Source: Fibrobacter succinogenes
GTDB lineage: Bacteria > Fibrobacterota > Fibrobacteria > Fibrobacterales > Fibrobacteraceae
Direction of reading: 5' to 3'
DNA length: 64,000 nt
Assembly (NCBI GenBank): GCA_902756345.1
Contig: CACVQR010000007.1
Coordinates: forward strand, 62,001-126,000
Shown here: positions 9,948-27,511 of the stretch, piece after piece
How the letters are laid out: every line of letters begins with the position of its first letter
Numbering within the stretch: the first letter of the stretch is position 1
The notes under the pieces: model-generated
What the model saw: only the letters and a program-made list of their open reading frames with translations
What the model was told of the DNA's origin: nothing
Databases searched by the model: none
Made by a program: the position numbers and the translations under genes

Positions 9948-10291
9948 TGTTGGCAATGTTTGCCAGAAAGGCTTAATTTGCCTTGTTGCTAACAAAGTAT
10001 CATGCGTTAGTAGAATATGTAAATAATAATGTTGTATATAATAATTGTGTATTTGCATGGAAATTTTAGAACAAATGTGCAGCTTTTGATGAGGTAAATA
10101 AAGTTTTACGAAGTAAAGTTGGTTGCGGGAAACCCGATAAATGAGGTTTTTTATAAGGAAAAACCTTGTACGAAAAATTAGCTACAAAATTTTTACATTC
10201 AGTGCGAATTTATTAAGAAAATATTATTTTATATTGCAGATTTGAATAAATTAAGTAAAAAAGTGTGATTTCCACGACTGAAGGCAAAAAT
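9948..10291 (+). promoter_or_regulatory. AT-rich, hairpin-rich leader of the giant-protein operon
   Basis: This is a 344-base gene-free stretch before the five-gene operon. Visible hairpins are TTGGCAA/TTTGCCA near 9950-9965, GTAAA/TTTAC near 10094-10109, CGGG-AAA-CCCG at 10126-10136 and AGGTTTTT/AAAAACCT at 10144-10166. I do not recognise a known riboswitch in it. The promoter must lie here or just upstream of the small gene, but no box pair stands out in the AT background. GAAGG at 10280-10284 is the ribosome site for the next gene. Confidence 0.5.
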
Positions 10292-13200
10292 ATGGCTAAT
10301 GAAGAGTCTTCTCAGAAACAGGGTGAAAACCTTTCTTCTGTTACCTATTTTGTTGAGAAACTGGCAACGGTTTTTTCTCGAGTTAAAGATTGTGTCTTGC
10401 AAGACTTGCTCGATGAGCTTATAAAAGAGGGCGCTACCTGGGAAGATTTCCAAAAAGAATTGGACCAAGTAAAGGATAACAGCATAGACAAAAACATTGA
10501 TGATTTCAAAGTTTTTGTTGACAGAATCGTAAAGAAACTCGGTTATGATATTTCGGCTGCGAAGGCAGAGTGCGGCGAACTCTACAATGTGTTAGCGCAA
10601 CTAGTTGTATCTGGAGAAAAGCTTGGTGTTGCGTTCAAAAAACTTTTTAAGGAATACGAAGATAAAGACCCTCAGAAGGTTCTCGAAGACCTGATATCAG
10701 GTATTAAAGTTACACCTAACGAAAGCAAAGACGGCAAAAATGCCACGCTTGTCACTTGGTCTGATGTAAAAGAAAGCTTCGGTTCCCTTGACAATTTCTG
10801 TAAAGAAGCAAAAAAAATCGGCGATAGCGATACTATATTAATCGGAACAGAGAAGTTTAATATAGGCTTGGCCGCTGAAGGTAGTGATTATGGTAAGATT
10901 ATGCCCATTCTTAACCTCGTCCAGGAAATTCTTGATCTAATCAAGAAGTTCTCGGATATTGAATGGGAAAAAATAAAGGACGAATTCGAGGATTTTGGTA
11001 ACTTTATATATGACTCGTATTTTACGGAAGAATTCGGCAAGCGAATCCTGGATTATATCCTTATTCTCATTTTGAAAAATGCCAAGGACGTTTTCAGGGA
11101 AGATCTCGATGCGATTTGGGATGAACTCAAAGTTTATAAAAAACAAATAGGGCAGGATCTAAAAAGTCTAGAAAAGAAACTTGATGAGCCTCTTAATGCC
11201 GTTGTCGAATTTATCAAGAAAATAAGCGGTGACAAGGAAGTCAAGCAAATTTTGGAATTTTTGGACGATGTTATTGATCTTAGGGATGAGATTGATGAAC
11301 TCAAGTCTGGTCTAGAAAAAGAATTAACCGAGGCTCTAAACGCAGCCGAATCAGAGATTAGCTCCGCGCAGGATGCAATAGAATCTGAAATAAAAGATCT
11401 TGCTAAACAAGCAGAAAAATCTCCTACAGGCGCAATTGAGGCCATTTCAGACACAGCCGGTAAAATCGGTGACGCTATTAAAGATTCCGCAGAAAAGTTA
11501 GAAGAGACTGGCTCACATCTCAAGGATAACGCCGAGAAATACATTTCTTCTGAAATAGATGACATCCAAAACAAAATAAATGAAGCTCGTGATCGAATCA
11601 AGAAAGAAATTGAAGATCGCATTAAGGAAGAAATTTCACGCCGAGTTCAAGCGGCCATTAAGGTTGCAGAAGAAAAGATAAAGGAACTCATTAAGGAATT
11701 TATCCCCCAATACGACTCTCTCGCAAGAGCGTTCCACAAGATTTACGCCGTATTGGAGTTCGCCGGAATAATTGGCGAGGAAAAGGTCAAGCTTGCGACC
11801 TACATTCCTAACAAAGTAGACAATAATGATGGCGGCGTTTTAGATCCAATCAAGTCCATAGAGATTCCCTCTTTTGACTGGAAAGCTTTGGCGCAAATAT
11901 TTACAAGCCCCAAGAGTTATTTAGAAGACAAATTCCCTTTAAACGATTGCAACGATATCGAAAAGCTAATCGTCAAAGTTTCCAATTTGTTAAATGCCTT
12001 TGACTGCAATATTCCTAAAATAACCTCTGTTAAAGATTTCTTATGGGAATTGGTTGCTCGCGTTGAAGTAGAAATTAAGAAAAATGCAACTAATGGAACA
12101 AATGATTTCATTGAAAGTTTGAAGACTCTCAGGGCGTATATTTACACAACTTTGATTGCCTTGGAAGATATTGCTCTTGAAACAAAGAAACAATTGGCAT
12201 TTGAATTAGACAATGCCGTCAAACAAGGCGAAAGTCTCGTTAATGATCTAAAATCAAAAATAGGTGGCGAGCTTGAAAATATTGAAAAGAACATAAACAA
12301 CAGGTTGAATGATCTCAAGAATACTGTTGTAACAAATGTTGGCTCTATAGATCAAGAGAGCGCCTTCTACCAAATTTTTATTGAAACGCTAGGTGAAGCC
12401 GCGCAAGAAGAAATTTCCGCATCCTTTAATGGAGTAAAGCTAAACAAGGACGTAACCCTCAAACATTGTAATGACTCTGTCAAGAAATCTGTAGAAAGCC
12501 TTCGTGAAAATTCAAAAAATCTTATATCGAAAATCGAGGATTTCCTTGATAAGGATAAATGGGAAAACAGCTTTAATGCTACCGTAATAAAACTAAAGAC
12601 TGAATTTGAAATACAAACGGCAGGAATTCCAAAAAATAAAGAAGAAATTGAAGATGCTATTGCGGGTTGCATTGATGATTTGTTGGGAGGCGATTCACCA
12701 AAGAATCCGTTTGCTGGAATTGATTTCTCTAAGTATTACGAAATCGTGGCAGATGCCGTTGAAGATCGGCTTCCAAAAGATTTGGACAAAGAATTTGAAA
12801 ATATTGAGAATGTTCTAAATGGAACAATAAAGGAACTGACGACTGCCATCTGTAAGGATGTCGAAAAATTAAGAGAGAATGCTGAACAAAATGTTGATGC
12901 GATTGCTAAATATTCGCAAGGCATTCCGCAGCTTGCTTGCAATATCTTAAACGCATGGCTCGAAAAGGTTAAGGAGAAATTCTACGAAATCATTATCAAG
13001 CCTATAATCTCTCAAATTCGAAAGGCGATTAAGGTTTGGTTCAGTGAAATTCTTAGTAAAGTTCTTGAAGTCGTCAAAAATAGTTTAAGAGAAATTCTTA
13101 AAAATTCTGAACTCAAGCAAATATTAAATAATGCCGAAGACGTCATTAACGCTGTTGTCGGCATGATTCCTGAAATTCTGAAACTCGTCAATGATGTCAA

Positions 13201-16123
13201 AGATTTGGCCGATGAAGCCAAAAAAGTTGATACCTGGAAGAGCGGTTTCCTGTTTGCAGTAAAGGTAATCAAGGCCATTCCAGAGGTAATCAAGGCCATT
13301 CCAGACGAAATCAAGGATAAGGTTTTCGAAGTCTGCAAGCTTCCGAAGCTTCCGGCTTGTTTAGAGAACTTCAAATTGCCCGACTACAAGTTTGATGCCG
13401 AAAACAATATCCTGATTGTAAACATCTGGACAAAAAAGGTTTCCGACAACAGTGGAGACGCCACAGGAAATGCCGACGTTTGTATACAACTCGCTCTATT
13501 TGCAGGCGAGATTACCGTTAATAATGAAAAGCATGATGGCCTTTACATAGTCCCCATGGTGACTGGTTCTTTGGGCTCCGTGATTGGTATTGGAAAAAAT
13601 CATACGCTTAAACTTGGAGCATATGCGTCGCTAAATAAAGACGGGGTTTCGAATAAAACGGATTTGGATGGAACAACGTCCATTTTCATTGATGTTGATG
13701 AATCCTTCAAAAAGAATCCGATTAACGTAACAGGAAGCAAAGAATCCGTTAGTGCAGAGGCCTCTTTAACATTCGGCAGAAAAGAAGGGGTTGATCCGTT
13801 AAGCTTCTTTGACACTGATATAGCTTCTCTGAGCATAGGCAACTACTCTGTAGAGACATCTGTTTCCTATAATAAGAAAGATTCAGAGCATAAGGGCTTT
13901 GATTTTGGTGTAAAAGGCTCATTAGAAAAATTAGTCCTTACATTGAAACTTCGCAATCAAAACGATTTCTTTGAGAAAATTTTGAAGGACGATATAGCCA
14001 TTAACCTAAGCAAACTTGAGGTTGGCTATTCCCTAAGCGACGGGTTCAACATAGATGGCGGGTTATATGTCAATATCCCCATCAACAGTGATATTGACTT
14101 GAAATTTGTCAAGTTCAACAATATCAGTTTGGAAATTGGTGGCGAAAAAGGCAATCTCATTGCCAACCTGTTGACAACCTTCGTTGTGGACTTGGAAGGC
14201 ATTGTTATCACCTTCCCCGAAATGGGGCTCGGTATTAAATGCAATGTCTTAGACTCCAATTTTAAGCCGGGTTCTTTCAAAATATCTCCGAAGTTCAAGT
14301 TCCCCAGCGGCCTTGGCATTTCCATTGACGTTGAAGCGGTCAAGGGCTCCGGATTTGTGGACTGGAATGAAGAAAAGGGCCGGTTCTTTGGACAAGTGGA
14401 ATTGACCATTCTTGAGAAGTGCGGTGCCAGCGGAAGAATCCTGTTCACCACGGGCAAGAACAATACGCCGTACTCCTTTAGCGGAGCCTTGAGCGTATTC
14501 TTTACCCCGGGCATTCAGCTGGGCATGGGATTCTCGTTGACCGCAATTGGCGGCTCCCTTGGCGTAAACCGCGGCCTAAACATTGATAAACTGCGCGATG
14601 CCGTATACGATGGAACGCTCACCACTGTCTTGCTGACCAAGAATATCGATAAGGATATCGACAAGATTCTTGCAAATATCGATGCCTACTATCCGATTCA
14701 TGAAGGTCAAATGTATTTTGGCTTCCTGGGGCAAATCACCTGGGGGGAAATCCTTAAAGCGGACTTTGGCCTGTTTGTGCAGGCTCCGAGTCCCGTAGCC
14801 ATTATTATTGCCGGTAACGTCGCGGTAAAAATTGAAAATGAAACTGCTAAAAAGCTTATCGCTATTAACGCAAGCTTTATGGGCGGTTATCAGTCCGACA
14901 AGGGAATCTTCTTTGATGCTCACCTATACGATTCCCATATTGTAGGTATCGACCTTTATGGCGATGTGGCCTTGCGCATTTACTGGGCCGGAGACACTAA
15001 GGGATTTATATTGTCTGCCGGTGGTTTCCACCCGCAGTATAAGCCCGAAAGCGGCTTCAATCTCCCTGATATGAAGCGCATGGGAATGAAACTGGATTAT
15101 GACATTTTGAAGATGTCGTTGGAAGCGTACTTCGCGATAACTTCGAATACGGTCCAGTTCGGTACTGATTTCCAGATGAGAATTGGCTGGGACAAGTTTG
15201 GAATTTCTGGATATGCCGGATTTAACGCACTGTTCCAGTTCCACCCCTTCAAGTTCGTTGTAGACATGTCTGCAGGTCTTGCCGTCAAGGTGGGCAGTTG
15301 TACCATTTGCTCTATTAGTCTTGACTTTGAACTTGGTGGTCCTGCTCAATGGCATGCCAAGGGTACAGCCAGCTTCTGGGTTCTGTTTATTAAGATTAAG
15401 GTGTCCTTTAATCTTACATGGGGCAAAAAACAGATTGATGACAATCGTAGCCGAATCGATGTTCTTCCGCTCTACACCAATGCCTTTAACGACAGGAACA
15501 ATTGGAAGTTTATATCCACAGATCTTGTCGACAACATGGTGTCCATGGTGGAATTGGACAAGAACGATTTCGTGTTGCAACCATCTGAGAGTATCGAGTT
15601 CAATCAGTCTGTAGTTCCTTTCGAAACGAAAATGGATTGCTATGGCGAAGACATTGTCAATGATTACAACATCATGGTGTTAGATGATGTCTTGGTCGGC
15701 GAAACACATGTTGAACACAACAAGGTTAAGAATTTCTTTGCACCGTCACTTATCAAGAAATTATCGGAAGACAAAAAACTTTCACTCCCGTCCTACAAAA
15801 AAATGTATTCGGGATTCAGAATTAGGACGGATTTCAAAAAAGACAATTTGAATTCAGCTTCTATTAATTGTACTCCCGACATAAGGGTGCTTAATATGTA
15901 TCCAGAAAAGAGTAACGATTCTTTTTGGAATGATTATGCTAAGAAATACGAATGTGAAAATAAAACGTCTACGGTAAGTCTGTCTCGAACCAGTACCGCG
16001 TCAAACAGGCAAAGGGCTGCGTCGCGAAGAACGGCGTCCGGATTTAAGAGGTACATCAAGCAAACAGATTCTTGTTTGACGGAACGATATCAGGCCTTAT
16101 TATCCGACGACATCTTGGAATAA
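10292..16123 (+). CDS. Giant coiled-coil protein with DUF6603 domain
   Basis: The 1943-aa product is the first gene of a five-gene operon. I chose ATG 10292 (GAAGG 7 bases upstream) over a GTG at 10265. Residues 1 to about 1030 are almost wholly charged amphipathic helix, strongly coiled-coil-like around 280-480 (for example LKSGLEKELTEALNAAESE). From about residue 1040 the protein becomes beta-rich. Residues about 1150-1712 match my memory of the DUF6603 family, with landmarks FSLTAIGGSLGVNRG, ILSAGGFHPQY, AYFAITSNTVQFG and GGPAQWHAKGTASFWV. The last 230 residues include a VVPF segment and FFAPSLIKKLSEDKKLSLPS, which also fits the family tail. No signal peptide or membrane segment is seen. 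The function of DUF6603 is unknown to me. Confidence 0.8.
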   Translation: MANEESSQKQGENLSSVTYFVEKLATVFSRVKDCVLQDLLDELIKEGATWEDFQKELDQVKDNSIDKNIDDFKVFVDRIVKKLGYDISAAKAECGELYNVLAQLVVSGEKLGVAFKKLFKEYEDKDPQKVLEDLISGIKVTPNESKDGKNATLVTWSDVKESFGSLDNFCKEAKKIGDSDTILIGTEKFNIGLAAEGSDYGKIMPILNLVQEILDLIKKFSDIEWEKIKDEFEDFGNFIYDSYFTEEFGKRILDYILILILKNAKDVFREDLDAIWDELKVYKKQIGQDLKSLEKKLDEPLNAVVEFIKKISGDKEVKQILEFLDDVIDLRDEIDELKSGLEKELTEALNAAESEISSAQDAIESEIKDLAKQAEKSPTGAIEAISDTAGKIGDAIKDSAEKLEETGSHLKDNAEKYISSEIDDIQNKINEARDRIKKEIEDRIKEEISRRVQAAIKVAEEKIKELIKEFIPQYDSLARAFHKIYAVLEFAGIIGEEKVKLATYIPNKVDNNDGGVLDPIKSIEIPSFDWKALAQIFTSPKSYLEDKFPLNDCNDIEKLIVKVSNLLNAFDCNIPKITSVKDFLWELVARVEVEIKKNATNGTNDFIESLKTLRAYIYTTLIALEDIALETKKQLAFELDNAVKQGESLVNDLKSKIGGELENIEKNINNRLNDLKNTVVTNVGSIDQESAFYQIFIETLGEAAQEEISASFNGVKLNKDVTLKHCNDSVKKSVESLRENSKNLISKIEDFLDKDKWENSFNATVIKLKTEFEIQTAGIPKNKEEIEDAIAGCIDDLLGGDSPKNPFAGIDFSKYYEIVADAVEDRLPKDLDKEFENIENVLNGTIKELTTAICKDVEKLRENAEQNVDAIAKYSQGIPQLACNILNAWLEKVKEKFYEIIIKPIISQIRKAIKVWFSEILSKVLEVVKNSLREILKNSELKQILNNAEDVINAVVGMIPEILKLVNDVKDLADEAKKVDTWKSGFLFAVKVIKAIPEVIKAIPDEIKDKVFEVCKLPKLPACLENFKLPDYKFDAENNILIVNIWTKKVSDNSGDATGNADVCIQLALFAGEITVNNEKHDGLYIVPMVTGSLGSVIGIGKNHTLKLGAYASLNKDGVSNKTDLDGTTSIFIDVDESFKKNPINVTGSKESVSAEASLTFGRKEGVDPLSFFDTDIASLSIGNYSVETSVSYNKKDSEHKGFDFGVKGSLEKLVLTLKLRNQNDFFEKILKDDIAINLSKLEVGYSLSDGFNIDGGLYVNIPINSDIDLKFVKFNNISLEIGGEKGNLIANLLTTFVVDLEGIVITFPEMGLGIKCNVLDSNFKPGSFKISPKFKFPSGLGISIDVEAVKGSGFVDWNEEKGRFFGQVELTILEKCGASGRILFTTGKNNTPYSFSGALSVFFTPGIQLGMGFSLTAIGGSLGVNRGLNIDKLRDAVYDGTLTTVLLTKNIDKDIDKILANIDAYYPIHEGQMYFGFLGQITWGEILKADFGLFVQAPSPVAIIIAGNVAVKIENETAKKLIAINASFMGGYQSDKGIFFDAHLYDSHIVGIDLYGDVALRIYWAGDTKGFILSAGGFHPQYKPESGFNLPDMKRMGMKLDYDILKMSLEAYFAITSNTVQFGTDFQMRIGWDKFGISGYAGFNALFQFHPFKFVVDMSAGLAVKVGSCTICSISLDFELGGPAQWHAKGTASFWVLFIKIKVSFNLTWGKKQIDDNRSRIDVLPLYTNAFNDRNNWKFISTDLVDNMVSMVELDKNDFVLQPSESIEFNQSVVPFETKMDCYGEDIVNDYNIMVLDDVLVGETHVEHNKVKNFFAPSLIKKLSEDKKLSLPSYKKMYSGFRIRTDFKKDNLNSASINCTPDIRVLNMYPEKSNDSFWNDYAKKYECENKTSTVSLSRTSTASNRQRAASRRTASGFKRYIKQTDSCLTERYQALLSDDILE

Positions 16124-16161
16124 TAATCTTTAACGCAAACGATTTATAAGTGGAAAATAAT

Positions 16162-19100
16162 ATGAGCAATGGAATGAATGGAGCAATTGACGAACAAGGG
16201 ACATTTTTCCCTTTTGTGAGAAAAGGAATTGCTACAAAAATCACACAAAAAGATGAACTTGCCAGCAATGAAAATGATGCCGCCGATCAAAAAGACATGG
16301 TCTTGTACCGGGAGCGCGCAGCTGTTGAAATAAGAGCGAAAATTGCTAGTGGACAAATAGAAAAAGAAATCGACGATACTACTACAAGGTCGCCGAGAGC
16401 TCTCATAAAAGATGCCGTAATCAGTTCTGAAACGAAAATTGTAAAAATTGTCGGCCCAGGCGACATTTTGTCCATAAACAACAATGCTGTTATGAATATT
16501 TCTCCGGCAGCAAACTCAGAAGGTTTTCCAAACGATTGTTTCCCATACATAGAGTTTGATGATCCTGATTTCGCTTGGCGCTATACCCCAGCAGCACCCA
16601 ATAATCAAAAACTTCGTCCGTGGATAGCGCTTGTGATGTGTGAATCAGACAAGTGTGAAATGCAGAATAGTGGAAATGGCAACAAGATAGTTAGGTTCAA
16701 AATAACTGAAAAGGAATACCCGGTTGTTTTTCCTCCAAACGATGAAATATGGAAAGCCGCTCATGCTCAAGGAGACGCTGGTGCCGATGCTCGCTTCTGT
16801 AGGCTCTTGGGAATGCGTCGAGAAGGGGTTGAATACCATCTAAAAGAAAATAGAAATTACACAGCGATAGTTATTCCCGTTTTTGAAGTAGGTAGGCTTC
16901 GCGGTCTTGGCTTTACTTCAGAGAAACTCAAAGATGTTGTTGCCCAGAAACCTTCTTGGGAAAACAGTTTAGAAGCTCAAACAAAGGACAATAACCACCC
17001 TTCCCCCCTAACATTCCCTGCATATTATACCTGGAATTTTAAAACTGGTGATTGTAGTTTTGATACGCTTGTAGAAAAATTGCAAATATACGAGGGTGCA
17101 AAATCCGGTATTGCTGTTGATGTGACCTCTTTAGGTCAGGGCTTAACAAATACATCGGCAAACAAAACGATTTTAATGCCGGCAGCAACAAAGGTTCCTA
17201 CCAACGATCCAAAACTGGAAAATCCCGATCCGTTCCCGAATCCAAAGCAGACGGACGAAAAGAATCTTTATAATTCATTGAAGGATTTGCTTAGCCGAAG
17301 CCCTGTTTTTGTTGAAAACCAACAAGATGTCCAAGACGTAAAAAAGAAGGGTGAATACGAGAAAGATGACCCATGGGTTGTTCCGCCTATATATGGTGGA
17401 AAGCATAGTATGGCGCTCTCATTCGATCATAAAGACACCCCTGAATGGGTGCGTCAGGTTAACCTAGATCTTCATTATAGGGCTGTTGCAGGCCTTGGTA
17501 AAAAGACCATCCAAAAGAATCAAGAAGAGTTTGTAAATCGAGCTTGGAAACAGGTTGAATTAGTACAGGCTCTTAACAGGGCTTTGTACCAAAAACTTTT
17601 GAGTATCAAAGTTAATGCATCTGTCAGGGGCTTAAAATACGAATGGATGGATCAAGGCAACGAGAACGTTTTTGTTGCGCGATTCATGCAACGCTTGTCC
17701 ACCATGCAAAAAACGAAAGCCGGTGGCAACGGAAAATCGCTAAACGACATTTTGAAGGATAAGGGTATTCCTGCCGCCTTTGCTTCGGCAACGTTCCAAC
17801 GAGTGACGGACCGCATGTCACAAAAGGTTCAAAATTTAGATTCAACAACTTTAATGGATCATATAGCGGAGAATCAGATATTCAAAAATGATTGGCACCC
17901 ATTCCATGATTTACCAACAATAGAACAGTTAGAAAATACTGTAAAGAATCTATTGCCCTTGATTGTGGAATATGTTATAAAAACAACGCTTGGCGATTAT
18001 GTTTCTTATTATAAAACAGGGCTCTCAACGGAAATTAAGGACGGAGACGAATTCTCTTTAAAATTCTCAGGATACAAATTCGGTTGGAAAAAATTAAATC
18101 ATTTCCGATGCAAAGGCAGTACCAACAGCAGTTTAAAACCAGTAATTCCAACTGATGGTTATCAAGCGGGCGTAACAGAGGCGTTCTTAAAACAAATAGC
18201 TACCTCGAATGATATTAATGTAATCGGGTTGCAAAATTCTGATTATTCCCAGCTTTTTGGGAACGCGGCTCCAATTACAAAATTGATTACTCTGAACTAT
18301 CCGATGAATGTTTATTTTATTTCTGTTGGTAAAGTCTCTGAATTGATGAAAATAGGTGCTGTAGAGTTCTATGCTGATTATGGAGAAACACAGGAATACT
18401 GGGTGCCAGGCAGTGGAGGACATGGGCACTATGTTGTCGTGCACCGCCTTACTAGCCTTGGTAATACATTAAGCTCCACCAGTCTCCCAGACTATATATT
18501 ACTTGATATCAGCAAAATAGATAAAAAGTATATTCAGACATTTAACAATCCCTACGAATATGCACAGTTCATTCGCAATTCAGAGGAAGCCGGAAGGCAT
18601 ACTTTAATTAACGAATGGGAAAAATTCAAAAAAGAAGTTGCTTCGCTCAAACAAAAATTCAATGCCAGCGAAGACAAAACTTTAGATTCGGAATCAAATT
18701 CCGCAAAGAGCTCTAATAATTCTACAAAGTCAAATCAAGACATTGATAATCTCAGGGAAAGCGCGCTTGACGACCAGACTTACAAACGAATCCAAGAAGT
18801 CGCTTGTAATTACTACAAGGAGTTCATCTCCAATGAAGATCTTCGTAACAAATATGTGGAAGACCTTCTCCAATCAAGGTACCCCATTATGGCATACCCC
18901 ATGTTCCCGGAGCCGGTTTACCATTACCTTAACGAATTATCGGAAAAGTTTATTCTCCCCTGTATTGAGGGGGTTCCCAACAATAGTATTGCAATGTTCG
19001 AAAACAATACAGCCTTTGTGGAAGCCTATTTGTGCGGCATGAACACCGAAATGGGAAGAGAACTGTTATGGCGAGAATACCCAACAGATCAACGTGGATC

Positions 19101-19629
19101 TTATTTCAAAAAGTTCTGGGATTCTGAGACCGACAGCGAATCTATTCGCAATGATGATTTCTTTGATGTGAAATCCTTGCATACATGGACAGGAAATCTT
19201 GGCAAAAATCATTGTGCAGGAAAGGATGGCTTGTTGCTGTTCGCTATCAAGGGAAACCTTATCAAGCTGTATCCTCATACAGAAATCTATCTTCACAAGG
19301 CAAAAGTGGTATCAAAGGAAAATGGTGCTATAAAATTTGATTATGATAATGAGGCTGAAAATGCAATCATAAAGCCTGTCGCCGAAGCCTTTTTAAAGGA
19401 TATTTATATTGTCGGGTTCAAAATAAGCCTAAAAGAAGCATTAGGCTCACCAAAAGGACCAAATCAAGGATATATCTTAACTTTCAAGCAGATGGTTGAA
19501 AATTTAGCCTTTAAAAATGCTCATTCTTTCGAAATGGAAGAGAAAACATCTGCGGATTATGCCAACAACCACATTGATACGCCGTCTACTATCGGTCGTC
19601 ACGTTTTAACCTTTCTTAAAAAGAATTAA
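16162..19629 (+). CDS. Giant conserved protein of unknown function, second in operon
   Basis: The 1155-aa product starts at ATG 16162. An in-frame GTG at 16150 is possible. No signal peptide or membrane helix is visible. Near residue 130 is DDPDFAWRYTPAAP followed by LRPWIALV, which resembles a motif I recall from large uncharacterised bacterial proteins that accompany DUF6603 proteins. A Ser/Asn-rich low-complexity linker (DSESNSAKSSNNSTKS) lies near residue 855. The C-terminal part from about 900 is a globular mixed domain. It lies 38 bases after the DUF6603 gene, and its stop overlaps the next start (TAATG), so these proteins are made together and may form one complex. No enzymatic motif is recognised. 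Confidence 0.75.
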   Translation: MSNGMNGAIDEQGTFFPFVRKGIATKITQKDELASNENDAADQKDMVLYRERAAVEIRAKIASGQIEKEIDDTTTRSPRALIKDAVISSETKIVKIVGPGDILSINNNAVMNISPAANSEGFPNDCFPYIEFDDPDFAWRYTPAAPNNQKLRPWIALVMCESDKCEMQNSGNGNKIVRFKITEKEYPVVFPPNDEIWKAAHAQGDAGADARFCRLLGMRREGVEYHLKENRNYTAIVIPVFEVGRLRGLGFTSEKLKDVVAQKPSWENSLEAQTKDNNHPSPLTFPAYYTWNFKTGDCSFDTLVEKLQIYEGAKSGIAVDVTSLGQGLTNTSANKTILMPAATKVPTNDPKLENPDPFPNPKQTDEKNLYNSLKDLLSRSPVFVENQQDVQDVKKKGEYEKDDPWVVPPIYGGKHSMALSFDHKDTPEWVRQVNLDLHYRAVAGLGKKTIQKNQEEFVNRAWKQVELVQALNRALYQKLLSIKVNASVRGLKYEWMDQGNENVFVARFMQRLSTMQKTKAGGNGKSLNDILKDKGIPAAFASATFQRVTDRMSQKVQNLDSTTLMDHIAENQIFKNDWHPFHDLPTIEQLENTVKNLLPLIVEYVIKTTLGDYVSYYKTGLSTEIKDGDEFSLKFSGYKFGWKKLNHFRCKGSTNSSLKPVIPTDGYQAGVTEAFLKQIATSNDINVIGLQNSDYSQLFGNAAPITKLITLNYPMNVYFISVGKVSELMKIGAVEFYADYGETQEYWVPGSGGHGHYVVVHRLTSLGNTLSSTSLPDYILLDISKIDKKYIQTFNNPYEYAQFIRNSEEAGRHTLINEWEKFKKEVASLKQKFNASEDKTLDSESNSAKSSNNSTKSNQDIDNLRESALDDQTYKRIQEVACNYYKEFISNEDLRNKYVEDLLQSRYPIMAYPMFPEPVYHYLNELSEKFILPCIEGVPNNSIAMFENNTAFVEAYLCGMNTEMGRELLWREYPTDQRGSYFKKFWDSETDSESIRNDDFFDVKSLHTWTGNLGKNHCAGKDGLLLFAIKGNLIKLYPHTEIYLHKAKVVSKENGAIKFDYDNEAENAIIKPVAEAFLKDIYIVGFKISLKEALGSPKGPNQGYILTFKQMVENLAFKNAHSFEMEEKTSADYANNHIDTPSTIGRHVLTFLKKN

Positions 19630-22600
19630 TGAAAATGCCCCAAAACAACACAAATCGCCAAAATGAATTGAATAAGAATGAGTTGAACAACATTCTCAAG
19701 AATACAAAAGTTCAGCGTCCGTTTATGATGTTTCCTTTGCGCTTGGAAACCCATTTCCGTAATGTGAAGGGAAAGAAACAACTTTGCGTAAGAGTATTTC
19801 CAGATGAGATTATGCTGGATTATCATACTGACAGTTTGACAAAGCAAGAAATAGAGGACGGCAAGTTCTTTTGGATTCAATGGTACATTGCCAGTGGTAG
19901 TGATGCAAGAGAATATGAGGCATGGGAAATTTTATGTAAAAAATATCCTGTGCATCGCGCAGCATGGATTTGTCGTTGCTTAAGGCCAAAGTATATTGAT
20001 GAATACAGACCATGGCAAAAGCTCTTTTATCGTCGTCCATACACAAGTTTGACGGACATAGAAAATAAGTGCAAAATTATTTATTCGCTTCTTTCAGAAA
20101 TTTCTTTACACCTCAGCGAAGAAGAGGTTGAACAAATTGATAAAGAGGTTGAAACCGACGTAGAACGTAAGGTGCGCGAAAACTTAACTCAAGTTCAGCA
20201 TTTCTTATTCGGTATTCAATCTAGTGTGTCTCATTGCAAATACCTTGTTGATTATTTGTACGATAACATATACAACATGGCGACGTATTTGTCTAGGTCA
20301 CTGGAAACTTGTAATAAGTTTTATGAAAAATTTCCTGGACTCTATAAGGAGAACTGCCGACGCCTTGAGCTTTGGGATGTTGATTATACGATATTAAGTT
20401 CGTTACGCAAAGATGTCGATAATTTTATCAAGACACTAGAGTCCAAAAGAATGACTCTTGATGACATGGTAAAAAGTTACCTAGCCGATGGTTCTATTTT
20501 TAGTGGCGATTCTCTACTCCGCAAAAATGCATGGACTGTTAACGAAGATAAAAAACTTGAAGTGCCCGGTTCCAATATCCTCCCTCAAAGATTCTTCTTT
20601 GTTGGGGAAGTAGACAATGCGAATAAGGATAAAATTTACGCCTATTCCAATGAAATCCCTTCGGATCTTCAAATGGGCATAGATCCCAACGAACAAGAAG
20701 TAGATGAAAATGGTCAAAAAGTTTCGCCGTTCCAAATCAACAGCAATGGCGATATGGTAATTAAGGGTGGCGCCAAATGGATGACGGATTATGATGAAGC
20801 CGAAAAATGTGGCATGGCCATAACCGTTCCGATATCAGATGACGTCACGAAATTTAATTATATCTATGTCTTGGGGATAAATGATTTTTCCGAAAAAGAA
20901 AGTGTTGATCGATTGACAAATCTGTTTAATGGCCACAATTATGCCGTTTCAAGCATGTCCTTCCTTTCTGCGGGAACACCAACAAACAGTTTGGACGGCA
21001 ATTTTAAAGACGATAGTGAAGAAATTAAACGCGAACGTTTTGACATAGAAGTTAACGATTCATACAAGAACTTTAGCCGATCCAAGGATTCCAAGATTCT
21101 AGCTGATTTTACTGGCATGGCATTTGACGATTGTTGGGGAAGCGTGATTGGCGGCAAACATACACAATCTGAAATGGCTCAAATTGTGTATAAGGAACTA
21201 TGGAACCACTTTAGAAGTAATATTAAGAAAGATGATGAAGATTTAAAGGAAATTCTTGATCTTGTAGGAGACTTTGTCGTAAATCATGTACGCGCAAGAG
21301 GTGTGTTGCCTACAGTAAAGATCGACACGCTCCCTTACGGGTTCCTACCCGTTGCCGATTATGGGAAATTACGAGAAACATTTAATGATGGTAGCGAGGA
21401 ATCTAAAAAGTTCCTTAGGCTTTTTGACCAATTGATTGACTTGGCGAATACATGGAAAGAATGCCGAAAAGAACAAAAGTTATGGTCAAAAGAATTGGTT
21501 GGTAATGATGCTGAACGTAACTATCTTAAAATGGCGGGCCAAACGCCGTATTCAATTTCTTTCGTAGAACGCTCTGTATTGAGAACTCCGTTCCTCGAGA
21601 AAAACTTCTTAAAATACCCAACTACAGGTATTCTCGCTGATTTAAGTGACATGGAATTCTTTGCAGATCAGCCTATAGATGACGCTGTTAAGGAAGTTTC
21701 TCTCCAAGGTCTAAAAAACTGTATTAACCAAGGCATAAGAAACCAGTTGTCTGACGAGGAATTGAACATCTATGTAGCCGAATTCTTAGATTTGTTCACT
21801 TATCGACTTGATGCCTGGTTTACTGGTTTCGTCAAGTTCGCAAAAGAGCGCTTGGACAAAAAGGGACAAAAAGCCGCGCCGCAAATTGGTTCGTATGGCT
21901 GGGTTTTCGGCCTTAAAGAAAACAATCGTGTCGAAATTGAAGATGTAGGCAAACGCGAAAAAATCATTCGCGACATGAAACTGGATCTAGATCCGAATAC
22001 AAACGCGATTTACAAGAGTACCGGAGAAGACAAGGGACACTATATTGTAGCGCCTTCCATACAACATGCTTTGACCACGGCGGTTTTGAGAAGCGCCTAT
22101 CTGAAATCCAAGAGCAGTGAAGAAGATGCTCACATTTGTGTGAATTTGTCTTCCATGCGAGTTCGTCAAGCCCTGCGCCTTGTAGATGGTATTAAGCACG
22201 GTATGTCGACTAGTGTAATTTTAGGCGTAGATCTTGAACGATATCTACACGATGCGGCCGATACATTTGGAGTGCATCTAGACCAATTCATTTACCCGCT
22301 GCGCCAGCAATTTAAACAAGTTGTTGATTTAAACTCTCAAACAGAAGAAGCTGGCTGCTATTCCATGCAGGTAATCAATGGCGAGGCTCTTCTCAATACA
22401 TTTATTGAAGAATGGAAATGGTCAAAATCTGTCTCTAGTTGGTTAGAAGATAATTATAAAGATAATGGATCTCTAGAATGGGTTCGTAATCTTAATGCTA
22501 ATTCCAATAACGGATTGGTCAATGTAGAAACAAGAAACGCGTTCTTCAAGCAGATTGAACGTATGATGGACTCTTACGACGCCTTGAATGACCTATTGCT

Positions 22601-24677
22601 TTCAGAAGGTGTGCACCGCCTTGTTATGGGTGACAAGAGTGCCTTCTACGCAATTGGTCAATTCCTTAAAGATGGTAAAGGCAGCATTCCGGAACTGGAA
22701 ATTTTAAAGAATCCTTCAGAACATGTTGTTGTGGCGCATAAAACCGGAATTATGCTTCCAGAAGTTGATATTGATGTTGAAGACGAAGAAAATACAAACA
22801 ACTTGATCAACCTTGCGGATCCCTCGATCAATGCGTGGGTGGAAAGCGTTGTCGGCGATATGGACAAAATCAAGGTCCTGATCAAAAAAGATTCTGGCCA
22901 AGGTAACGGCGAAGTAGAAGCCTGTTCTTTAGCTCAGCTGGGAATAAGTGGCGCCGAGTATATTTATTTGTCTTCCTTTGAAGGGGCCTTTAAAAATTAC
23001 CTCAAAACCAAATGGCATTTGCTAAATCCTGGGTTTGTAGGAGAAATTGAAGTTGTTGAAGAGTCAGAAAATGCAAATTGGGCTCCTGAAGATGGGGAGT
23101 TGAGCTTAGAAGAAGATCAACTTCGTTTGAAAGTTCTAAGGGAAATCGTACTTCATAGCCGAGAAATGCGTGCTCCAGATATACAGAGCACTCTTTGGGA
23201 AGGCGCGGATGAAGTTGATTATACCGATATCAGCGAGTTGAAGTTACGGTATGAAAATCTTTTACTGCGAGAGGATGAACTTCATTTAAAGATTTCCAAG
23301 TGGCGCAGAAAAGCCGAAAAGAGCAGTTTGTATGATGACGCTTTTGTACGAGACGCATACATGTATCTTTGCAATTGCGTCGAAGCGGGCCTTGTTAATT
23401 GTATTGGAAAATTTGACACTAGTATTTTCGTAGACAAGATAGATCCTATTGTATATCCTGAAAGTATTCAGAACGCGCAAATGTTGCAAAAAGAGCTTCT
23501 TGAAACCATGAAGGCCGTGGAAACGCAGCTTCAGGAGCGAGTGGATAATGCAAAGGCCTTGGTTGCTACTAATAAGGAAACTCTATCAGTTGCAAATTAT
23601 ATTTCCGCAATTCAAGCTCTTACGCTAGAAAATATCAGGGTCGCACCTCGTTTCCATATATTAAAGAAAGAACTTGTTGAAGGCCCCATGATTAAACGTG
23701 CGGAACGCATAGATTTCGCTGTTAGGGGGAATTCTAATTCAAATGGTAATGGTTTTATCTATAACAATTTAAATCAAGGAACATTTGATCAGTGGGAAGA
23801 TGAAGTTTCCGAAGTTAGAGACGGAATGAAAAACATACATCAACTATCCATGTTTCAGACGGCTATCGATAAGGACATGGGTAAGGTTGCTGTACTACAG
23901 ATGGAATCCTCCAAGTCTGAGGTTATTGCTGGAAATTGGCTTGGTTTGTCTGTTGATGACGAATCAGAATTGCAGGATATGGATTCCATAGTGCTTTACA
24001 ATGCGGAGGCCTATAACCCGCAATATAGGAGTGGCGGACTTTCTTTAGCCTCAAATGCAGGTCTTGTTGTTGACTCTTGGTTGGAATATATTCCTTACAA
24101 GAAACACAACGCAGGCTTAGTGTTCCACGTTGACAGACCGGACAATGAGGCTCCTCAAGCCGTTCTAGTGGCAATAAACCATAATATCAATGTGAATCCA
24201 TCTAATTTTGAACATACGCAGGCTACACTCCCGGGCACAACATCTAATGTTGTCAATCAAGTCGATCTTACCAAGGGTAGATTATGCTGGTGCCCTGCAT
24301 GCAGAAAAGAGTCTCTACGTTATCGTGATTCTATTCTTAATCAAAGCAAAAATATTAGCAACACAAATCCTGCAAGAACAAATAACAACCTTTCCCATAG
24401 CAGCTCTGTCGTCTGTGAAGGAAAATGGGATGTTGATTCCTTGCTAGGCATTCTAGATGAAACCAGGTTTATGATGATGAATAGGGTGGTTGATCCGGAT
24501 GGGGTCTATACTAATAAAAAATTGAGTCCTATTTTCCCGCTGTTAAGTGAAATCATCTTTGAAAATCTGAAAGGCTTGAACCACATAACAGGCTCTACTT
24601 CTGGATTCTATAAGAATAAGCTGATGATGTGGGATGTGTTTGATGCCATTAGCGGTGGCAAAAATATAAGGGGATAA
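19629..24677 (+). CDS. Giant conserved protein of unknown function, third in operon
   Basis: The 1682-aa product starts by overlapping the previous stop (TAATG). Near residue 34 it has FPLRLETHF, then VRVFPDEIMLDYHTD and HRAAWICRCLRP, resembling an N-terminal pattern I recall from giant uncharacterised proteins in other phyla. The middle is mixed, with helical segments. Residues about 1130-1400 contain long charged helices (for example LRLKVLREIVLHSREMRAP). A CWCPAC pair of cysteines near residue 1552 could be half of a zinc site. No signal peptide, membrane segment or catalytic signature is recognised. It is followed 6 bases later by the next operon gene. Confidence 0.75.
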   Translation: MKMPQNNTNRQNELNKNELNNILKNTKVQRPFMMFPLRLETHFRNVKGKKQLCVRVFPDEIMLDYHTDSLTKQEIEDGKFFWIQWYIASGSDAREYEAWEILCKKYPVHRAAWICRCLRPKYIDEYRPWQKLFYRRPYTSLTDIENKCKIIYSLLSEISLHLSEEEVEQIDKEVETDVERKVRENLTQVQHFLFGIQSSVSHCKYLVDYLYDNIYNMATYLSRSLETCNKFYEKFPGLYKENCRRLELWDVDYTILSSLRKDVDNFIKTLESKRMTLDDMVKSYLADGSIFSGDSLLRKNAWTVNEDKKLEVPGSNILPQRFFFVGEVDNANKDKIYAYSNEIPSDLQMGIDPNEQEVDENGQKVSPFQINSNGDMVIKGGAKWMTDYDEAEKCGMAITVPISDDVTKFNYIYVLGINDFSEKESVDRLTNLFNGHNYAVSSMSFLSAGTPTNSLDGNFKDDSEEIKRERFDIEVNDSYKNFSRSKDSKILADFTGMAFDDCWGSVIGGKHTQSEMAQIVYKELWNHFRSNIKKDDEDLKEILDLVGDFVVNHVRARGVLPTVKIDTLPYGFLPVADYGKLRETFNDGSEESKKFLRLFDQLIDLANTWKECRKEQKLWSKELVGNDAERNYLKMAGQTPYSISFVERSVLRTPFLEKNFLKYPTTGILADLSDMEFFADQPIDDAVKEVSLQGLKNCINQGIRNQLSDEELNIYVAEFLDLFTYRLDAWFTGFVKFAKERLDKKGQKAAPQIGSYGWVFGLKENNRVEIEDVGKREKIIRDMKLDLDPNTNAIYKSTGEDKGHYIVAPSIQHALTTAVLRSAYLKSKSSEEDAHICVNLSSMRVRQALRLVDGIKHGMSTSVILGVDLERYLHDAADTFGVHLDQFIYPLRQQFKQVVDLNSQTEEAGCYSMQVINGEALLNTFIEEWKWSKSVSSWLEDNYKDNGSLEWVRNLNANSNNGLVNVETRNAFFKQIERMMDSYDALNDLLLSEGVHRLVMGDKSAFYAIGQFLKDGKGSIPELEILKNPSEHVVVAHKTGIMLPEVDIDVEDEENTNNLINLADPSINAWVESVVGDMDKIKVLIKKDSGQGNGEVEACSLAQLGISGAEYIYLSSFEGAFKNYLKTKWHLLNPGFVGEIEVVEESENANWAPEDGELSLEEDQLRLKVLREIVLHSREMRAPDIQSTLWEGADEVDYTDISELKLRYENLLLREDELHLKISKWRRKAEKSSLYDDAFVRDAYMYLCNCVEAGLVNCIGKFDTSIFVDKIDPIVYPESIQNAQMLQKELLETMKAVETQLQERVDNAKALVATNKETLSVANYISAIQALTLENIRVAPRFHILKKELVEGPMIKRAERIDFAVRGNSNSNGNGFIYNNLNQGTFDQWEDEVSEVRDGMKNIHQLSMFQTAIDKDMGKVAVLQMESSKSEVIAGNWLGLSVDDESELQDMDSIVLYNAEAYNPQYRSGGLSLASNAGLVVDSWLEYIPYKKHNAGLVFHVDRPDNEAPQAVLVAINHNINVNPSNFEHTQATLPGTTSNVVNQVDLTKGRLCWCPACRKESLRYRDSILNQSKNISNTNPARTNNNLSHSSSVVCEGKWDVDSLLGILDETRFMMMNRVVDPDGVYTNKKLSPIFPLLSEIIFENLKGLNHITGSTSGFYKNKLMMWDVFDAISGGKNIRG

Positions 24678-24683
24678 ATTATT

Positions 24684-26645
24684 ATGGCGTCAAAAAAAAC
24701 TTTTTACAAAGATCTTTTTGAATACAGCAAGTATCATCCTAGATATTTAGATGATTTGGATCTTAGCCGGAAGACGGCCGTCTTTACAAGGCTAGAGCCC
24801 ATAACCCGGGCTCCGGACTTTCAGAAAGCACTTTCCTTTGAAATATTTGATCCCTATTGGTCATTAGCTCGTCAATGGCAGTATGGACGCTTCGACGGAA
24901 ACGATTGCGGAACCCCTGTGTCCATAAAAATCAGGACCAAAAAAAGGTGGTTTGACAACATCTGCCGAAAGGATGGAAATGGAGCAAAAGAAACTTACAA
25001 ATACTCTACGGATGTTCCGTTAGAATATGAAGTGGAAAAATTAGATGTGGAGATTACTCCATACATTCGTGTTCAATCGGCAATGTATTTTAAGAAAATG
25101 CTGAAACGAACTTTTGGCTCCAAAATCCCTTCGGAAATTAATAAATATCTGTTGGAAACATTCAGTCTCTCAACCGATGATTTTTATCGCGATCATGACG
25201 ATCTTGTTGACGATTTAAAAGTAAAAAACAACCAAGCGCTGAAGTCGTTTTCAGCAGCCTACTTAAAACGGTCTTTTGACGGATTCAAACTCTACAAGGC
25301 TATTGTTGAAAAAAATATCAAGTTGCGATTGATGCAAACTTCGTCGCCTGACATGAAACTGATGGAGGAATACAAGTCCTGGTTTGAATCAAAATATTTA
25401 CCGAACAAAAATTCCGCAAGCTGCTGGAGCAACGACAAACTTGGTTATCGAGCCGAAATTCATCAGGATACTAAACAATATGTAGCAGAGGATTATGACA
25501 ATGGGCGGCTTTCTTGGTATTCCTTTGATTGTAATTCTGACAAGGAAAACAATGAAGGCGAAGAAAAAATGCTCTCTTATATACCCTCGCCTGCTAACTT
25601 TACGGGAGCCCCATCTCAAAAGCTATGGGAATTTGAAAACACCAAAGTCAATATGGTTGCCGATGACGAAAAAGACTTTAGCATGTTGGCGACGGCTACC
25701 ATTATGCAGTACATAAGCATGTACAGCAATGATTGGATGATTGTGCCGTTAGAAACAGAAACTGGTGTAGTCCTTGATGTGGAAGGCGTTGTTATAAAGG
25801 ATTCCTTTGGCGAAAGAATTTATATAGAAGAAGACGCTGAAGATGTAGATGACCCAGTCGATTCAGTCGAATTTACCGATCGTTGGAATTTGTTCGGCAC
25901 AACAAGAAGCCAAGCCTTCGCCGAAGATAACTTCACTACAACCAGAGGATTATTGTTCCCTCCTGTGGTCCTGAAAACAGAAGAAAGCTCACCTATTGAA
26001 GAAGTTCAGTTCTTAAGAGATGAAATGGCCAATATGGTGTGGGGGGTTGAAACAACTATTAACGATGGTTGTGGTGGAATCATGGATGGCAAGACTTTGT
26101 CTGACGCCGTGTTTAGGGATGTTGATGAGAGAAATACGCAGAATGAAGAAGCTTTGACGGAAGAGGCATCGACTGAAAAAACGGAAGATGCAAATAAAAT
26201 GGAAGCAGAATATTCTTTGCTTATTCAGAATCGTGTGCCTTTGAACTGGATTCCGTTCTTGCCGGAACAGTTGGATGATTTCCACAATATTCATTTCCGT
26301 CGTGGAAGAATGCCTTTGTTCTACGATAAAGAATTCCTCCCTGTCAGACCCTCCACAAAGTTGTTGGCTGCAGAGAAAGATTGCAATGGTTGTGTGAAAC
26401 CTTTCTATATCGACGAAAATCAGATTGCGGGTTATGGCACCAAACTTGTTAAAACTGCTCAGAGATGCAGATGGTTCCTTGGAAAAACCTTTAACTGGGT
26501 TGGGAACCGCACCATCATTAGCGAATACCAAGCTAATAGTGGATTGCTGTTTGATGAGTTGATTCCTACGGCAAAGATACGTAAAACAATAGAAGTGTCA
26601 GATGGAAATGAGGAAATAGGGGAATTGGAAAATACAAATGGTTAA
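24684..26645 (+). CDS. Conserved protein of unknown function, fourth in operon
   Basis: The 653-aa product has a good ribosome site (AAGGGGA). Near residues 36-78 it has FTRLEPITRAPDFQKALSFE and DPYWSLARQWQYGRFDG-ND-G, a very distinctive motif. I recall it from widespread uncharacterised proteins (RLEP...DPLWLLARQWQ...GxDxGSP) that occur with DUF6603 genes. Acidic linkers are present near 375-390 and 480-510 (ALTEEASTEKTEDANK). The C-terminal part has VPLNWIPFLPEQ and RRGRMPLFYD. No signal peptide or membrane segment is seen. Its stop lies 8 bases inside the next gene. Confidence 0.75.
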   Translation: MASKKTFYKDLFEYSKYHPRYLDDLDLSRKTAVFTRLEPITRAPDFQKALSFEIFDPYWSLARQWQYGRFDGNDCGTPVSIKIRTKKRWFDNICRKDGNGAKETYKYSTDVPLEYEVEKLDVEITPYIRVQSAMYFKKMLKRTFGSKIPSEINKYLLETFSLSTDDFYRDHDDLVDDLKVKNNQALKSFSAAYLKRSFDGFKLYKAIVEKNIKLRLMQTSSPDMKLMEEYKSWFESKYLPNKNSASCWSNDKLGYRAEIHQDTKQYVAEDYDNGRLSWYSFDCNSDKENNEGEEKMLSYIPSPANFTGAPSQKLWEFENTKVNMVADDEKDFSMLATATIMQYISMYSNDWMIVPLETETGVVLDVEGVVIKDSFGERIYIEEDAEDVDDPVDSVEFTDRWNLFGTTRSQAFAEDNFTTTRGLLFPPVVLKTEESSPIEEVQFLRDEMANMVWGVETTINDGCGGIMDGKTLSDAVFRDVDERNTQNEEALTEEASTEKTEDANKMEAEYSLLIQNRVPLNWIPFLPEQLDDFHNIHFRRGRMPLFYDKEFLPVRPSTKLLAAEKDCNGCVKPFYIDENQIAGYGTKLVKTAQRCRWFLGKTFNWVGNRTIISEYQANSGLLFDELIPTAKIRKTIEVSDGNEEIGELENTNG

Positions 26646-27495
26646 AGGACTTCATGTTAATAGTACGGCTCCTTTTTTGGCAAAAAAAAGCGGAACGGAA
26701 TATTTTATAGAAGATTTTGAAATTCTTTCCACGATTTTGTCCGCATTAATGTGGAGAAGGTGTAATGGCCCCATAAAACTTTATACAGATGAAGTAGGTT
26801 TAGCGTACTACCAAAGCCTGGGCCTTACAAATCTGTGGGATGGGGGTATCGATACCGAAACCATATCGAACATTCCCGATTCTATAGACCAGAATATTTT
26901 CTGGGCCGGAGCCAAGTTGTTCGCCCTTAAAAATGAAGGGGCCCCCGTTGCGCTGATTGATACGGATTTGATTGTTTGGACGGATCTTAATGAAATTCTT
27001 TCTAAAGAAAAGTTCGCCTGTTTGCACCGAGAAGAATTTGTTGAGTGCTATTTGCCGTTGGAATTGCTTAAGAGACGCAAGGGGTATGCTCCAGATCCTA
27101 AGTGGGATTGGTCGGTGAATCCTTGCAATACAGCCTTTGCCTACTTTGGCGACAAGGATTTGTTGGAGTATTACACGGCGTGCTCCATTGACTTCATGAC
27201 AGACAACAAGGAAATGCCTTGCGAGTTCGTATCTCAAATGGTGTTTGCTGAACAGCGTGTCGTGGCTATGTGTGCAAAAGCTATGGATATTCCTATATAC
27301 GCATTTTTGAACGACCCTTACCAAGAAAACAATGACAGTTTCTCCCATTTGTGGGGGGCGAAAAGCGTAGCTCGTGATCGTAGAAGTCAACGGGTTGCTC
27401 TTTGTTGTGCCTTGATGAAAAAGATTAACAAGCTTTTCCCGGATTATAGAAATGACTCTGAAGCCTTTAATGTAATTATGGAAAATTATTTTTAA
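26638..27495 (+). CDS. Glycosyltransferase-like protein (GT-A/DUF6734-like), last gene of the operon
   Basis: The 285-aa product starts inside the previous gene (8-base overlap). The order of elements is like a GT-A glycosyltransferase. An N-terminal strand/helix segment includes IKLYTDEVGL, and an xDxD-type motif APVALIDTDLIVWTD lies near residues 100-115. A conserved-looking WSVNPCNTAFAYFGD lies near 160-175, and EQRVVAMCAKAM near 205. It reminds me of DUF6734-type proteins of the Bacteroidota. It may modify one of the giant proteins, or simply have been carried with them. The donor and acceptor are unknown. Confidence 0.6.
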   Translation: MVKGLHVNSTAPFLAKKSGTEYFIEDFEILSTILSALMWRRCNGPIKLYTDEVGLAYYQSLGLTNLWDGGIDTETISNIPDSIDQNIFWAGAKLFALKNEGAPVALIDTDLIVWTDLNEILSKEKFACLHREEFVECYLPLELLKRRKGYAPDPKWDWSVNPCNTAFAYFGDKDLLEYYTACSIDFMTDNKEMPCEFVSQMVFAEQRVVAMCAKAMDIPIYAFLNDPYQENNDSFSHLWGAKSVARDRRSQRVALCCALMKKINKLFPDYRNDSEAFNVIMENYF

Positions 27496-27511
27496 AGGTT
27501 GTACTGAATCT

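Follow-up and report, generated by a model that had tools for sequence, protein, structure and literature searches.

The described systems closest to the cassette examined here, which consists of five co-directional + strand genes (g1 to g5) in a 64,000-nucleotide stretch of a Fibrobacter-genus genome (the window), resemble it only in part. The Tc and Rhs toxin complexes are alike in their working alone, as they too combine several giant proteins lacking classical export signals with one variable enzyme; there, however, the variable part is a C-terminal domain, whereas here it is a separate upstream gene. Extracellular contractile injection systems are likewise widespread and mobile, carry variable cargo, and in Chitinophaga lie adjacent to the cassette, but the genome of the window contains no sheath and g2 to g4 match no phage-tail family. 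The long amphipathic antiparallel strands of DUF6603 (PF20248), of which g1 contains a full-length member, recall ApoB100 and outer-membrane beta-barrels, yet there is no sequence relation, the root-mean-square deviation (rmsd) is 10-12 Å, and g1 has no signal peptide. Unlike outer-membrane barrels, furthermore, DUF6603 occurs in archaea and in monoderm bacteria as well. The PF20248 family entry states no function, no paper on DUF6603 or PF20248 was found in the open-access literature (broader word searches also gave no relevant result), and the surrounding cassette is undescribed in the literature searched.

We show here that g1 to g4 are inherited as a block and that this block moves between lineages. 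New to this analysis is an exchangeable enzyme, tightly coupled upstream of the compact form of g1: in most lineages the enzyme family before g1 changes while the core stays constant. The block comprises ~5,400 residues and occurs in hundreds of species from about a dozen phyla. No role is known for the core, three of its families are nameless, and the combination of a constant core with an exchangeable enzyme slot provides a concrete handle on its function.

Re-mapping of the window returned all five open reading frames (ORFs) with the positions, sizes and tight junctions given in a preliminary description of the locus. The presence of DUF6603 in the first gene, as stated there, is borne out by a PF20248 profile match of 309.9 bits (cut-off 27, E=3.9e-92) covering profile positions 4-499 of 502. 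The features, with protein lengths in amino acids (aa), are as follows.

10292-16123, + strand: g1, 1943 aa from ATG (1952 aa from GTG 10265); helical/coiled-coil N-terminal half followed by DUF6603
10292-12781, + strand: g1 residues ~1-830, helical stretch additional to compact g1, in the Fibrobacter/Bacteroidales form
14096-15766, + strand: DUF6603 domain (PF20248) in g1, residues 1269-1825 by profile match; at least 22 long amphipathic antiparallel strands predicted
16162-19629, + strand: g2, 1155 aa; conserved ends DDPDFAWRYTPAAP and MGRELLWREYPTDQRGSYFKKFWD
19629-24677, + strand: g3, 1682 aa; conserved family without known relatives
24684-26645, + strand: g4, 653 aa; RQWQ motif protein
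26638-27495, + strand: g5, 285 aa; DUF6734, glycosyltransferase-A-like
9950-10291, + strand: AT-rich 5' leader of the insert; left edge set by alignment to empty sites
9950-27511, strand not applicable: complete insert, between a small ORF (after an RlpA-like gene) and prmC

The junctions g1/g2, g2/g3, g3/g4 and g4/g5 measure 38, -1 (TAATG), 6 and -8 bases, and G+C content over g1 to g5 is 37-45%, against ~50% in the flanks. In Fibrobacter relatives without the cassette, a TPR gene, the RlpA-like gene, the small ORF, prmC and prfA are contiguous. Nucleotide alignment to these empty sites delimits an insert of 17.56 kilobases (kb) at ~9950-27511, containing g1 to g5 and a short leader only. A sister-species genome (G136) carries the same five genes at a different chromosomal site, with the RlpA-prmC site empty. 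Given the empty sites and this second location, the transferred unit in the Fibrobacter genus is exactly g1 to g5; the earlier treatment of only the first four genes as the assembly left out g5, which is part of this unit. Nucleotide similarity between the two cassettes is confined to 10187-27497. As the last ~105 bases of the leader (from 10187 on) are common to both, these are probably the promoter and leader of the cassette. Identity between the two copies is 91% for g5 and 62-76% for g1 to g4, and ratios of nonsynonymous to synonymous substitution (dN/dS) of 0.05-0.19 in all five genes indicate purifying selection. The cassette is sporadic in the phylum, being found in 6 of 168 genomes.

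A scan for g4 across one genome per species (84,980 species) returned 419 relatives, and 80 loci were fetched and kept for maps, with ORFs called mechanically and phylum labels taken from record titles. Bacteroidota account for 58 of these loci and the remainder fall under eleven other labels. The ORF maps give the order g1-g2-g3-g4 on a single strand in almost all loci of sufficient length: g3 lies next to g4 in 70 of 76 testable loci and near it in 2 more, g2 is present in 64 of 66 and g1 in 37 of 41, with a median intergenic gap in the core block of 11 bases. Chance does not account for the block, since dozens of unrelated genomes repeat this four-gene order. DUF6603 was also present in 55 of 56 g4-bearing genomes tested. 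Among 197 Chitinophagaceae genomes drawn evenly, g4 occurred in 10 and DUF6603 in 18, all ten g4 genomes having DUF6603 (hypergeometric p=2.3e-12), and in 9 of 11 cases a single contig carried both, separated by 10-12.5 kb. The preliminary description had placed relatives in distant phyla, correctly, and proposed a conserved, co-encoded multi-protein system moving as a cassette, an idea to be abandoned if g2 to g4 were rarely found near DUF6603. That idea survived the co-occurrence test, and both the spread over ~12 phyla in constant order and the empty sites agree with it.

Homologues of g4 are also encoded on complete plasmids from haloarchaea, Streptomyces, Rhizobium and Gemmatirosa. The haloarchaeal plasmids carry the g1-g4 set and are the secure archaeal records, the one Thermoproteota-labelled g4 locus being a metagenome-assembled genome (MAG) that may be misbinned. 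The Streptomyces plasmid (L009:19959-21761) has a g4 homologue alone, with g1 to g3 not nearby, and a Bacteroidales MAG (L190, contig JAGCYZ010000107) contains two cassettes head to tail. Practically none of 2.9 million viral contigs scanned for g4 gave a match, the sole hit being one weak fragment. One contig from faeces, recorded as 'Bacteriophage sp.' (L012, MT835531), has g2-g4 homologues and is probably a misfiled bacterial fragment. As the viral scan was nearly empty and this single record is unannotated, the cassette is not viral, and we reject a phage origin.

Outside the Fibrobacter/Bacteroidales branch g1 is in most cases compact, at ~1140 aa. When compared with the window's g1, a hidden Markov model (HMM) of the compact form covers residues 831-1911 only, with weak coiled-coil matches before residue 831; the ~830-residue helical extension is of the Fibrobacter/Bacteroidales type and is missing from compact g1. 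In 37 of 41 compact-g1 loci a same-strand gene lies no more than 210 bases upstream of g1, in most cases within 50 bases or overlapping it. The preliminary inventory of the system had left this exchangeable gene out. Clustering divides the upstream genes into ten or more unrelated families, and Pfam, the other basis for their identities, names PhoD phosphatase, NAL1-type trypsin-like protease, M64 peptidase, subtilase, phospholipase D (PLD) and galactose oxidase. Two further families without a Pfam match share an SH/TH...RGC pattern and may be caspase-like. On a quick tree of the DUF6603 domain, which has some long branches, the enzyme class switches no fewer than 15 times across the labelled rows and the trypsin-like class appears at eight separate places; near-sister cores carry different enzymes (locus L169 versus L137 and L163). 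In Leptolyngbya the order is g2-g3-g4-enzyme-g1, so that the enzyme is tied to g1 even when the block is rearranged. The simplest reading of this pattern is a constant machine with one plug-in enzyme. In L137 a gene on the - strand (7529-8305) with a weak, below-cut-off likeness to matrixin-type metalloproteases stands directly upstream of the variable enzyme gene. Cassettes of a related DUF6603 type (L127, L128, L129, L130, L134, L135 and L187) were also seen, several of them again with a variable upstream gene, assigned by Pfam to lipase 3 or metallo-beta-lactamase.

Our preferred explanation, to which we give slightly less than an even chance, is that the cassette, as a mobile module, encodes a g1-g4 assembly that would carry or deploy one interchangeable enzyme; its parts are observed, and its delivery role we infer, as we do the joining of the enzyme to g1-g4 in one assembly. 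A fuller version, put forward more tentatively, would be an undescribed mobile enzyme-deployment machine spanning Bacteria and Archaea, built from four giants, among them a DUF6603 protein active on membranes and a g4 of new fold, with an enzyme slot on the g1 side and derived neither from phage tails nor from Tc/Rhs or known secretion systems. The core proteins would be made in the cytoplasm and join the enzyme in an assembly. Contact with lipid (through membrane insertion, as a pore or as a lipid belt) would fall to the DUF6603 subunit, whose amphipathic strands would make up a giant sheet or barrel, and g2 to g4 would form the body of the particle. The particle might leave its producer without a signal peptide, by lysis or through some exporter, after which the enzyme would act outside, on a substrate or a target cell. 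The Fibrobacter/Bacteroidales branch has the helical extension of g1 instead of the upstream enzyme, and there the glycosyltransferase-like g5, which follows g4, may fill the enzyme role. If deployment were the true function, the system would be a device of a new kind for delivering proteins or displaying enzymes, equipped by nature with a plug-in site, and DUF6603 would represent a new class of proteins acting on membranes or lipids. Besides the conserved block, its movement and the enzyme swaps, the explanation draws on the lack of signal peptides in core and enzymes, on the amphipathic strands of DUF6603 and on lamin-tail domains in haloarchaeal g4. Several observations weigh against it. 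Four compact-g1 loci have no upstream enzyme, and a separate upstream enzyme is absent throughout the window's own Fibrobacter/Bacteroidales branch, where g5 as payload is a guess made from its inclusion in the transferred unit. No constant export, lysis or immunity gene was seen in the cassette neighbourhoods, and the modelled DUF6603 resembles outer-membrane barrels only loosely.

The DUF6603 model (window 13619-16024, built with 33 homologues) is of high confidence at model residues ~160-600, where it forms more than 20 long antiparallel strands. In the alignment, 22 strands show alternation of hydrophobic and polar residues (z=9.8 versus shuffles), whereas the strands of g4, used as a control, show none (z=-0.7). 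The best Foldseek match is the ApoB100 beta belt (E 1.6e-4), followed by ushers and porins; comparison with porins by VIA gave Z ~14 at an rmsd of 10-12 Å, and TM-scores of the fold matches were low. The amphipathic strands and these fold matches point to a lipid-facing sheet or wide barrel for DUF6603, and not to membership of the ApoB100, usher or porin families. The same evidence could be accommodated by a lipoprotein-like or granule-coating assembly, in which DUF6603 would act as an ApoB-type lipid-facing beta belt, joined in the Fibrobacter type by amphipathic helices, while the enzyme modified a stored or carried lipid or polymer. The rank of ApoB100 among the Foldseek matches, the hydrophobic face on nearly every DUF6603 strand, below-cut-off Pfam matches to Apolipoprotein and phasin in the helical part of g1, and the lipid- or phosphate-active nature of some enzymes (PhoD, PLD, lipase 3) would all suit such an assembly. 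We nonetheless consider it improbable, as the TM-scores are low, the helical matches can be explained by coiled-coil composition, and proteases are as common as lipid enzymes. It is the N-terminal coiled coil of g1 that gives every match to PHROG tape-measure proteins, PADLOC ZorA, Pfam ATG17 and Apolipoprotein, and we took these matches as compositional.

Under a simple hydropathy rule, used here rather than a trained predictor, none of 280 g1-g4 homologues (0 of 61 for g1) has a signal-like hydrophobic N-terminus, in line with the absence of signal peptides first reported for the giant proteins themselves. Upstream enzymes of usually secreted families also have none by this rule. Proteins without signal peptides, encoded by a sporadic, mobile locus with a constant core and a changing effector, might equally belong to an intracellular defence or stress module, in which a giant g1-g4 sensor complex would release or activate the swappable enzyme within the cell; many anti-phage systems share an effector logic of this kind, by analogy. 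This is an unlikely account. There is no PADLOC model for g2 to g5, and g1 matches only the coiled-coil part of ZorA. The enzyme list contains no nuclease, TIR or membrane effector, galactose oxidase, M64 and subtilase are types that are usually extracellular, and no constant defence neighbours were seen around the cassettes. The preliminary description had instead entertained a large particle or a surface-deposited structure. In the latter case the proteins might form a structural layer or matrix, with the enzyme anchored at the surface. The giant sizes of the proteins are compatible with this, as are the lamin-tail domains and surface-protein annotation of the haloarchaeal versions, where plasmid-encoded g4 (L010:19998-22709, L013:20058-22583) has two C-terminal lamin-tail domains; the core, however, lacks signal peptides and Pfam finds no anchor or sorting family in it, so we regard a surface layer as quite improbable.

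The preferred enzyme-deploying module must also be compared with a role in extracellular contractile injection systems, which the cassette might serve as an accessory or effector set. In three Chitinophaga species (L069, L073 and L075) such a system, with DUF4255-like protein, sheath, tube and VgrG-like spike genes named from their sequences, follows g4 on its strand, starting 0.5-0.9 kb beyond it (from ~12100). No other locus has contractile genes near the cassette, and the sheath family PF04984, present in 11 of 22 cassette genomes, is absent from the other 11 and from the whole genome of the window. Since adjacency is limited to three Chitinophaga and no sheath gene occurs in the window's genome, contractile injection systems are not required; we reject partnership with them as a general rule and hold the accessory role to be very improbable. 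No tail PHROGs were found for g2, g3 or g4, and those matching g1 are confined to its coiled-coil part. No Tc, Rhs, VRP or neuraminidase-like Pfam domains were detected in g1 to g3 (E<=1) or g4 (E<=0.1), and no Tc or Rhs chains appear among the matches listed for the DUF6603 and g4 models. Kinship of g2 to g4 with phage-tail, Rhs/Tc or contractile-injection proteins, which had been named beforehand as fatal to the idea of a separate system, was looked for, and no phage-tail, Rhs or Tc match was found.

More generally, Pfam and NCBIfam gave no family for g2, g3 or g4 and PDB no relative in sequence, and profile comparison found no homology among them. The confident g4 model (61 sequences; pLDDT 81, pTM 0.77) has no structural counterpart either in PDB (Foldseek E 0.18, Z 2.6) or in the viral models searched. 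By profile (38.7 bits versus a cut-off of 27, E=1e-9) g5 belongs to DUF6734 (PF20508); it has no PDB sequence match. Its IDTD(L/I)I motif, of DxD type, is invariant or nearly so in 11 homologues, with both D residues strictly invariant, in keeping with a glycosyltransferase-A-like protein. In another type of DUF6603 cassette, the second gene is a relative of the N-terminal part of g2 (hhalign 96%). Most of the other-type cassettes listed above have such a relative, of ~750-970 aa, after the DUF6603 gene, and in two of them a giant 'FPLVPNRWL' protein follows the g2-like gene. Finally, a family of rhodanese-domain proteins occurs near the end of g4, on either strand, in many loci whose g3 is enlarged (~2,200 aa), 17 loci being recorded (e.g. 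L040:11930-13045).
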